Assembly: GCA_944358385.1 (NCBI GenBank)
Contig: CALVQW010000002.1
Span: forward strand, 1 to 64,000
Reading direction: 5' to 3'
DNA length: 64,000 bases
Origin: an uncultured Clostridia bacterium
Lineage (GTDB): Bacteria; Bacillota; Clostridia; Christensenellales; CAG-917
Both the position numbers and the translations under genes were made by a program. The notes below the pieces were generated by a model that had not been told where the DNA came from, searched no databases, and saw nothing but the letters and a program-made list of their open reading frames with translations. Positions 52,090 to 55,448 of this stretch are shown piece after piece. Numbering within the stretch: position 1 is the first letter of the stretch; each line of letters starts with the position of its first letter.

Positions 52090-52123
52090 GTGTGCATATC
52101 AAGATCCAATATGGAGGCAATGT

Positions 52124-52972
52124 ATGAAGAAATTTGGCAAAATAATGGTGATCGTGCTTGCACTCGCCACTCTCGTCGGCGCCTGCTTCGCCTTCGCCGC
52201 GTGCAATGATAACAGCGTCAAGATCGGAGCGCAGCAGGGCACAACGGGCCTGTTCTATTTGCAGGGCAATGCCGATATGAATTTCAGCGGCTATTCCAAC
52301 ATTTCCGCGAAGTCTTATGACAGCATAGGACAGGCGGTGCAAGATATGATCAACGGCAACATTTCTTACGTTGTCGGTGATGTCGAGGTCGCAAAAGCGG
52401 CGGCGGCAGACGTCGGCGGTGCGCACATCATCGACATCCCGCTCAGCACCGAGCAGTATGCGATCGGCGTTGACAAAGCACAGCCCGAATTGCTTGCCGA
52501 CATCAACGAAGTGCTTGCGGAAATGAAGGCGGACGGTTCTCTTGCGGAGATCATCGCAAATTACGACAACGAGGACTATGAACCTGTCGGTGTGCCCGCA
52601 GGTGTGCAGGACAGCAGCAAGAATCAGCTCGTTCTCGCAACCAATGCGGAATTCGCGCCGTTTGAGTCCAAGCAGGGCGAACTCTTTGTCGGCATCGACA
52701 TCGAGATAGCGAAGCGCATTGCGGACGAGCTTGGCATGGAACTCGTCATCAAAGACATGGAGTTTGACTCCGTTGTGACTTCCGTCGGCAAGAACGGCAT
52801 TGACATCGCGCTCGCCGGTCTCACCGTCACCGAGTCCCGCAAGGTTTCCGTGACTTTCTCCGACTCCTATTATGACGGATCTTATCAGGTCATCATAGTG
52901 AAGGACGGCGACACGACCTTTGACGGCTGCACCACGAAAGAGGACGTCGAGAACATCTTGAAGTCCCTGTAA
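52124..52972 (+). CDS. Amino-acid ABC transporter binding lipoprotein, apparently circularly permuted
   Basis: 282 residues from the ATG at 52124 (SD TGGAGG). Lipoprotein signal with Cys21 or Cys27 as anchor. The mature part starts with what is normally the C-terminal half of a polar-amino-acid binding protein: KIGAQQGTTG (33-42), AVQDMINGNISYVVGD (71-86) and the last helices LLADINEVLAEMKADGSLAE (123-142). After a linker (about 150-167) comes the normal N-terminal half: LVLATNAEFAPFE (169-181), VGIDIEIAKRIADELGMEL (189-207), GIDIALAGLTVTESRK (225-240, ligand Arg239), ending DVENILKSL, which usually runs straight into the QGTTG half. The reading frame is intact and followed by permease and ATPase genes. 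Confidence 0.88.
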   Translation: MKKFGKIMVIVLALATLVGACFAFAACNDNSVKIGAQQGTTGLFYLQGNADMNFSGYSNISAKSYDSIGQAVQDMINGNISYVVGDVEVAKAAAADVGGAHIIDIPLSTEQYAIGVDKAQPELLADINEVLAEMKADGSLAEIIANYDNEDYEPVGVPAGVQDSSKNQLVLATNAEFAPFESKQGELFVGIDIEIAKRIADELGMELVIKDMEFDSVVTSVGKNGIDIALAGLTVTESRKVSVTFSDSYYDGSYQVIIVKDGDTTFDGCTTKEDVENILKSL

Positions 52973-52983
52973 AAGGATGAGTT

Positions 52984-53697
52984 ATGGCCGATAAATGGCA
53001 ATTATTCGTTGAACAATTCGTAACATATGGAGGCTATCGAACAGTACTCGATGGCCTCTATGCTACGATAATAATCGCGGTCGGGGGACTTCTCATCGGC
53101 ATAGTCATCGGTATGCTGATAGCAATGACGAAAGTCGTCCCTAAATATTCTGCTTTTGTGAAAACATTGAGCAGGATTTCCGACGTTTATGTGGGCTTTT
53201 TCCGCGGCACTCCTATGGTGGTTCAGCTTTTGCTGGTTTACTATGTGCTGTTGCCCGCAATGGGAGTGCGCATCGACAGTGCGGTCGTAGTCGCCGTCAT
53301 AGTGTTCGGTCTCAACAGTGGCGCGTATGTTTCAGAGATAATGCGTAGCGGTATCAATTCCGTCGATCAGGGACAGCTTGAGGCGGGCAGAGCACTTGGA
53401 CTCAGCTATCCGACGGCGATGCTCCGCATAGTTATCCCGCAGGCGATCAAGAACATCATCCCCACGCTGGGCAACGAATTTATCGTATTGGTGAAGGAGA
53501 CTTCCGTCACAAGTTTCATTACGGTCGTCGATCTGACCAAGGCGTTCCGCGGTATTGCGAGTGCAAACTATGAGTACATAATCCCGTATCTCATGCTTGC
53601 GGCGTTCTATCTCGTCATCGTCATCATCATCACCATTCTCATTAGATTTATCGAAAGGAGGTTTGCCAAGAGTGACAGAAGAGTTGCTTCAAAATGA
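52984..53697 (+). CDS. Amino-acid ABC transporter permease (HisM/GlnP type)
   Basis: 237 residues, SD AAAAGGATGAG. About five helices; [17 protein letters not shown] and the EAA loop [22 protein letters not shown] are standard for polar-amino-acid importers. Starts 11 bases after the binding-protein gene; the ATPase gene overlaps its end by 26 bases. The single permease gene suggests a homodimeric channel. Confidence 0.93.
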
Positions 53698-54835
53698 TAG
53701 TGTGCAAGAAGAGTCCCTTTTGACCTCCGACGGCGGCGATACGCAGGCGGCGGATGTCGGCAAGCCCATCATCGAGGTGGTGAACCTCACCAAGAAGTTC
53801 GGCGATCTGCTCGTGTTGGACGACATCTCCGAGAGCGTCAGAGTGGGGGAGAAGGTGGTGGTCATCGGACCTTCCGGCGGCGGCAAGTCCACCTTCCTCA
53901 GGTGTCTGAATTGCCTTGAAGATCCCACTTCCGGGCAGATATTCTTTGAGGGCGTCGACCTTGCCGACCTCAAGGTGGACATCAACGAGCATCGCAGAAA
54001 GATGGGCATGGTGTTCCAGCAGTTCAACCTGTTCAACAACCTCACCGTCAAGAAGAACATCACCCTCGCGCCCGTCAAGATCGGCATTGCGGACCTCAGG
54101 AAAGCCAAGCGTCACAACGCCTTCACGCCCCTTTACAACAAGCTCTTTGACAAGTTCGGCGCAAAGTACAACGAGCATATCGCAAAGAAGCGCGAAATGC
54201 TCCAAACGAAGGTTGAACAGCTCAGAACGGAGCTTGAACCCGTTGTTGAGGCGTGGGAGCAGACCAAGGCCGTCGAGGAAGTGGCGGGCAAGAGCGTCGT
54301 TTCTTACGATCCCGAACTCACCAAAAAGAAGCTTGCCATAGCCAACAAACTCGAACAGACGGAGCGCGCTCTCGCGCACGCCGTCCCCGCGGAGAGGAGA
54401 GAGTTTATCCCCCTTCCCGCCGACAGTGCCAAGGCGGTGCGCGAGGCAGCGGAGGAGAACGCCATGCGCCTTCTCAGACGCATAGGGCTTGAGGACAAGG
54501 CGGATGTCTATCCGTCCACCCTGTCCGGCGGGCAGAAACAGCGCGTCGCCATCGTCCGCGCCCTTGCCATGAACCCCAAAGTCATGCTCTTTGACGAGCC
54601 TACTTCCGCTCTCGATCCCGAGATGGTCGGCGAAGTGCTCGACCTCATCAAACAGGTCGCCGACGAGGGCATGACCATGGTCATCGTCACGCACGAGATG
54701 GGTTTCGCCCGCGAAGTCGGCACCCGCATCCTCTTCATGGCGGAAGGCAAAGTACTCGAGCAAGCGCCCCCCGAGGAGTTTTTCGGGAATCCGCAGCATC
54801 CCAGGCTGCGCGAGTTCCTCGCAAAAGTGTTGTAA
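53672..54835 (+). CDS. Amino-acid ABC transporter ATPase with a long helical insert
   Basis: 387 residues against about 245 for GlnQ/ArtP. The GTG at 53672 is preferred (AAGGAGG upstream); the frame is open further up but overlaps the permease. Walker [10 protein letters not shown] (66-74), Q-loop FQQFNLF (115-121), [15 protein letters not shown] (284-298), Walker [13 protein letters not shown] (304-315), His341. Between TLAPVKIG and [18 protein letters not shown], where relatives have about ten residues, lie about 120 residues (138-258) that are Lys/Glu-rich and look helical or coiled. The first 30 residues are an acidic extension. Confidence 0.92.
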
Positions 54836-55378: not shown

Positions 55379-55448
55379 TTTAACAATTGGGGACGGGGCA
55401 AAATTGTTAAAAAAATTTAACATTTTTGCCCCGTCCCCAATTGTTAAA
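55379..55448. repeat. Perfect palindrome with GGGGACGGGGC arms
   Basis: TAACAATTGGGGACGGGGCA plus three bases pairs perfectly with its complement ending near 55447; the centre is itself TTGTTAAA...TTTAACA. GGGGAC-type palindromes of this kind are known as REP-like substrates of Y1 (RAYT) transposases; no such transposase gene is in the window. Confidence 0.6.

Follow-up and report, generated by a model that had tools for sequence, protein, structure and literature searches.

A circularly permuted amino-acid binding lipoprotein from a lineage of repeatedly rotated binding proteins in Clostridia

A 64,000-nucleotide stretch of DNA from an uncultured Clostridia bacterium, hereafter the window, contains an open reading frame in which the halves of an amino-acid binding lipoprotein appear to be swapped. 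This raises the question whether the frame encodes a natural circular permutant and, if so, how its segment order arose. The original prediction, made from the sequence, had described an intact lipoprotein gene with a Shine-Dalgarno sequence at the head of an importer operon. The open frame, the lipobox FAAC27 and the upstream GGAGG agree with this, and the gene order substrate-binding protein (SBP), permease, ATPase was found. We name three segments by window residue: C (165-282) is the canonical N-terminal half, A (31-97) runs from KIGxQQGTTG up to the helix preceding the second hinge, and B (98-152) comprises the canonical C-terminal strands and helices. The features are:

52113-52117, plus strand: ribosome-binding site GGAGG, read in the sequence six bases 5' of the ATG at 52124
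52124-52972, plus strand: SBP open reading frame, 282 aa, ATG start, TAA stop
52124-52201, plus strand: lipoprotein signal peptide, residues 1-26, with lipobox FAAC27, by sequence reading
52202-52204, plus strand: codon of the lipidated Cys27, aligned with the lipobox Cys of homologues
52214-52414, plus strand: segment A, KIGAQQGTTG...DVEVAKAAAADV, the canonical middle of the protein, from alignments
52415-52579, plus strand: segment B, HIIDIPLSTEQYAIGV...IIANY, the canonical C-terminus, from alignments
52562-52621, plus strand: new linker from the old C-terminus to the old N-terminus, YDNEDYEPVGVPAGVQDSSK, by alignment with the linker found in BCA-order relatives
52622-52969, plus strand: segment C, QLVLATNAEFAPFE...VENILKSL, the canonical N-terminal half, from PF00497 and alignments
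52984-53697, plus strand: permease of the polar amino-acid type (BPD_transp_1 / HEQRo_perm_3TM), from profile matches
53672-54835, plus strand: GlnQ-like ATPase, from profile matches, with an extra ~114 aa between Q-loop and signature

Pfam and NCBIfam matches thus place the SBP at the head of an operon with a polar amino-acid permease and a GlnQ-like ATPase, and its lipobox lies five residues ahead of the first strand. The extra ATPase stretch (roughly 54110-54452) is probably helical, and both family-3 importer ATPases of the genome have one, the second being encoded at L223 5918-6916. It also accompanies canonical SBPs and appears shorter or absent in some relatives (G168), and is therefore not tied to the permutation. 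Past the operon, at about 55379-55447, lies a long near-perfect inverted repeat (TTAACAATTGGGGACGGGGCAAAA ... TTTTGCCCCGTCCCCAATTGTTAA), possibly the remnant of a small mobile element.

Profile and structure-sequence alignments give the window SBP the order A-B-C, against C-A-B in canonical family-3 proteins; unrotated, it does not follow the canonical N-to-C order. In a Pfam search, PF00497 positions 1-95 matched residues 169-264 (100 bits, cut-off 26.4), so that the canonical N-terminus begins at residue 169, where it had been predicted. The predicted QGTTG is present at residues 38-42 of the translation, and the new ends lie at the expected boundary between the ILK(x)L helix and KIGxQQGTTG, the protein ending in ENILKSL and the new start being KIGAQQGTTG. 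GlnH/TIGR01096 models match twice in swapped order, with residues ~165-265 corresponding to the canonical N-half and 33-150 to the canonical C-half, and the solved structures AncQR, GlnPQ and TmArgBP likewise match in two swapped stretches (whole-protein E-values of ~1e-28). For AncQR the two stretches separately reach i-Evalues of 7e-18 and 6e-8, which excludes a chance match. When the canonical N-half was moved to the front by hand, the double match became a single stretch covering TIGR01096 24-249 of 250 and PF00497 1-129 of 132, a full-length family match. Halves swapped relative to a homologue and a single alignment once rotated are what marks a natural permutant. A collinear alignment to ordinary SBP_bac_3 proteins was looked for, and none exists. 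The frame is confirmed as a circularly permuted family-3 (SBP_bac_3) amino-acid binding lipoprotein, and all predicted coordinates that we examined agree with the sequence.

Many permuted relatives were found in samples of the order and class, and the idea that the window SBP is a lone oddity is rejected. Three other species have the entire window order end to end, two of them genomes of the window's genus (98 and 96% identity) and the third from another genus (55%), and the junction recurs in these independent assemblies. The loci first collected contained 63 permuted ORFs of BCA and 10 of ABC order, several of the latter being copies of one gene, together with 21 canonical CAB ORFs and 10 further ORFs with C then B only; BCA is the commonest permuted form met. 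The wider samples were of 297 genomes from the order and 391 from the class. Judged by the order of match segments, with the architecture verified directly at the fetched loci, about 26 genomes of the class sample are BCA-type, about 22 ABC-type and about 9 of a further B-C-type, which puts permuted family-3 proteins in at least ~15% of it. The single-contig genomes G495, G523 and G642 are among the carriers. Permuted family-3 SBPs are widespread in Clostridia, with several break points.

To locate these break points, all frames of 204 loci were scanned with a profile of 225 positions in canonical order. The chain ends of permuted proteins fell into five clusters: h16-20, h93-98, h105-107 (the window type), h123-137 (the other SBP of the window's genome, with its orthologues) and h173-176 (BCA). 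The known family-3 topology places four of the five within lobe 2 or at its hinges, and in those four the lobe interrupted in the canonical chain is continuous. The cluster at h16-20 holds one protein of the 204 loci, L170 (G148, contig C99), which breaks after the first strand and ends in QLVVLTNVPFSPFEYLA, a rotation found once. Some h93-98 proteins and the BCA protein L171 extend in frame into a permease; permuted SBPs of this kind occur at L091, L107, L108, L171, L180-L182 and L189, with L107 and L108 from Coriobacteriales.

The junctions bear on how the rotations are related. The B-C linker of BCA proteins, YFGDGTPxxVxSAxxDxSKDQLVVATNA, aligns with that of window-type proteins, YDNEDYEPVGVPAGVQDSSKNQLVLATNA, and the fusion of old C- and N-terminus was therefore probably shared and not invented separately. 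In L170 a BCA-like A-end abuts the start of B (AIVKNINKLN-GNALKLIDVPLT), which would fit an earlier tandem BCA stage. At L081 (2338-4120) a BCA gene is followed head to tail by an ABC gene, plausibly a tandem intermediate and a snapshot of how a rotation originates. The canonical-order proteins L166 and L167 carry a C-terminal tail, INSFFDGTADYTYTNP, that matches the linker of their BCA sisters, which suggests, short of proof, that they reverted to the canonical order.

Rotation has changed repeatedly in family-3 SBPs of Clostridia. The 12 proteins of the window clade group with the BCA protein L123 (support 99 in a quick tree and 100/98 in a careful one) within a mostly BCA region, and the canonical L019, L165, L166 and L167 and Helicobacter proteins fall among or beside permuted ones. 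A minimum of eight rotation changes is required on the careful tree, a count that presupposes correct rotation, as the trees were built on rotated alignments. The principal rival holds that permutation happened once, long ago, that the nested canonical members are tree errors and that there were only one or two rotation changes. Short deep branches and many unresolved forks in the careful tree leave it some room, and under the AU test a clade of the 12 window-type proteins that leaves out L123 is not rejected (p=0.16). However, the same test rejects a single clade of all permuted proteins (p=7e-5) and of all proteins with the window break point (p=0.006), the break points differ in kind, and the L166/L167 tail is hard to square with it. 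We regard a single ancient permutation as unlikely.

A second rival, less probable still, is that halves of different SBPs recombined independently, with no true rotation. Segments are short and recombination is evident at the syntenic locus described below, but trees of segment C only and of A+B only show the same mixing of rotations and place the key rows alike, and the entire chain rotates into one full-length family match. Shuffling of segments is not favoured.

In the window's genus the arrangement leuA-ilvN-ilvB, SBP-permease-ATPase, holA is syntenic, with contig ends hiding parts of it in some genomes. The SBP at this one locus is of ABC order in G000 (the window), G006 and G009, of BCA order in G001, G004 and G005, and canonical in G002, G007 and G008. 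Its signal peptide is 65-100% conserved across the congeneric loci; the mature part is not. DNA identity between the window and G002 is 89% in ilvB, 93% in the intergenic region, 92% in the signal and 92-94% in the ATPase, and collapses from ~52190-52215 (lipobox) to ~53762 (start of the ATPase fold), a dissimilar stretch that spans the mature SBP and the permease. This delimits one further feature:

52190-53762, plus strand: putative exchangeable cassette of mature SBP, permease and ATPase leader, with a sharp identity drop against G002 at both edges

As the flanks are ~90-93% identical and the mature SBP and permease wholly different, the simplest reading is that SBP-permease cassettes were exchanged by recombination within conserved flanks. 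A second importer (C12) presents a similar picture: its SBP is permuted, with the break inside lobe 2, in G000, G002, G005 and G009, and canonical in G006 behind a conserved signal peptide, which is identical in G000 and G006. In the window's own genome this SBP (L223 4305-5234, contig C12) is the only other PF00497 match, and no canonical family-3 SBP was found among the PF00497 matches of that genome.

AlphaFold2, given an alignment of the locus proteins, folds the mature window protein confidently (pLDDT 95.1, pTM 0.89) and a BCA relative similarly (pLDDT 94.4, pTM 0.85). Foldseek assigns type II binding folds with probability 1.00 and a TM of only ~0.5, the program aligning in sequence order; under that alignment no full-length structural match was among the PDB hits listed, and no solved permuted family-3 structure was among the matches listed for the window and BCA queries. 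R75 and D157 of GlnH, presumably the Arg and Asp holding the carboxylate and amine of the amino acid (both roles, and the GlnH sequence used, being taken from general knowledge), align with R and D of the window SBP. Its probable role is to capture an amino acid, with lobe 2 as the anchored lobe. The contrary view, that the permuted protein is expressed as a decaying or non-binding remnant with no working binding protein, is very improbable given the intact frame, lipobox, ribosome-binding site, operon position, ligand residues and confident predicted fold; moreover, in G006 and G009 the mature SBP stands at 93-94% DNA identity, against only 80-84% for ilvB.

The weakest rival is an artefact of assembly or binning, in which a collapsed tandem pair of ordinary SBP genes mimics swapped halves: tandem SBP genes do exist (L081) and the close relatives with known titles are draft metagenome assemblies, yet a join of this kind is refuted, and given next to no probability, by an identical junction in G000, G006, G009, G017 and further species of other families, by the BCA order of dozens of species sampled in different studies, single-contig genomes included, and by open frames and a linker conserved at the protein level.

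Natural permutation of binding proteins as a kind is already known, in type I and type II proteins. Circular permutation among the betaine-binding type II SBPs was reported by CPSARST (PMC2395249). In our sequence comparison, ProX 154-321 followed by 28-121 corresponds to OpuAC 14-155 followed by 164-255. The break between B. subtilis OpuAC and E. coli ProX is equivalent to that of the window SBP, immediately ahead of the (I)xGxxxGxG strand in lobe 2; family and ligand differ from those of the window SBP, and the OpuAC family is absent from its Pfam/NCBIfam matches. We found no report of close relatives, or of a single locus, with several OpuAC/ProX rotations. TpMglB-2 (Tp0684) of Treponema pallidum, a 'type Ic' SBP, is a natural circular permutant that is lipid-anchored and retains ligand binding, and its type of permutation also occurs in other Gram-positive bacteria (PMC4990184). 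Unlike the window SBP, it has a type I fold, a glucose ligand and a different break, with the last ~70-100 residues permuted. The closest known system is family 3 itself (PF00497; GlnH, HisJ, ArtJ, TmArgBP), which has all sequence segments, the ligand residues, the type of lipoprotein and the partner genes of the operon in common with the window SBP; the latter differs in its A-B-C order in place of C-A-B, its lobe-2 anchor and its additional linker. No description of a family-3 circular permutant was found in the open-access literature. Within that literature the case has no precedent in family 3; among type II SBPs, OpuAC and ProX came first. What is new here is the occurrence in this family, how many break points there are, that rotation changed repeatedly, and that one locus differs in rotation between genomes.

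In our judgement the window protein is very probably a permuted SBP of a polar amino-acid ABC importer, from a lineage that has rotated repeatedly and exchanged its cassettes. Within lobe 1, where both lie, the old C- and N-termini would have been joined through the ~20-residue linker, and new ends opened in lobe 2 directly ahead of the KIGxQQGTTG strand. We infer that the protein keeps the two-lobed flytrap fold with its ligand-binding Arg and Asp and delivers a polar amino acid to its own permease, the membrane tether running via lobe 2 instead of lobe 1. The most likely route to a rotation would be duplication head to tail, with fusion in frame and trimming in different registers, and SBP-permease cassettes of differing rotation may then swap downstream of the conserved promoter region and signal peptide. 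A bolder reading, which we offer tentatively and consider somewhat doubtful, makes rotation an evolving character: loci might cycle through rotations, canonical return included, as tandem copies recombine and SBP-permease cassettes are exchanged downstream of an unchanging promoter region and signal peptide, with selection acting on the change of anchor point or hinge connectivity itself.

Cases of natural circular permutation are mostly deduced from isolated pairs of distant proteins. With at least five break points, repeated changes and same-locus differences in congeners, its steps become observable and testable in this family. Profile searches on such genes find half-proteins or misread the order. 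The proteins are also natural permuted flytrap scaffolds for studies of hinge and anchor, and for sensors.
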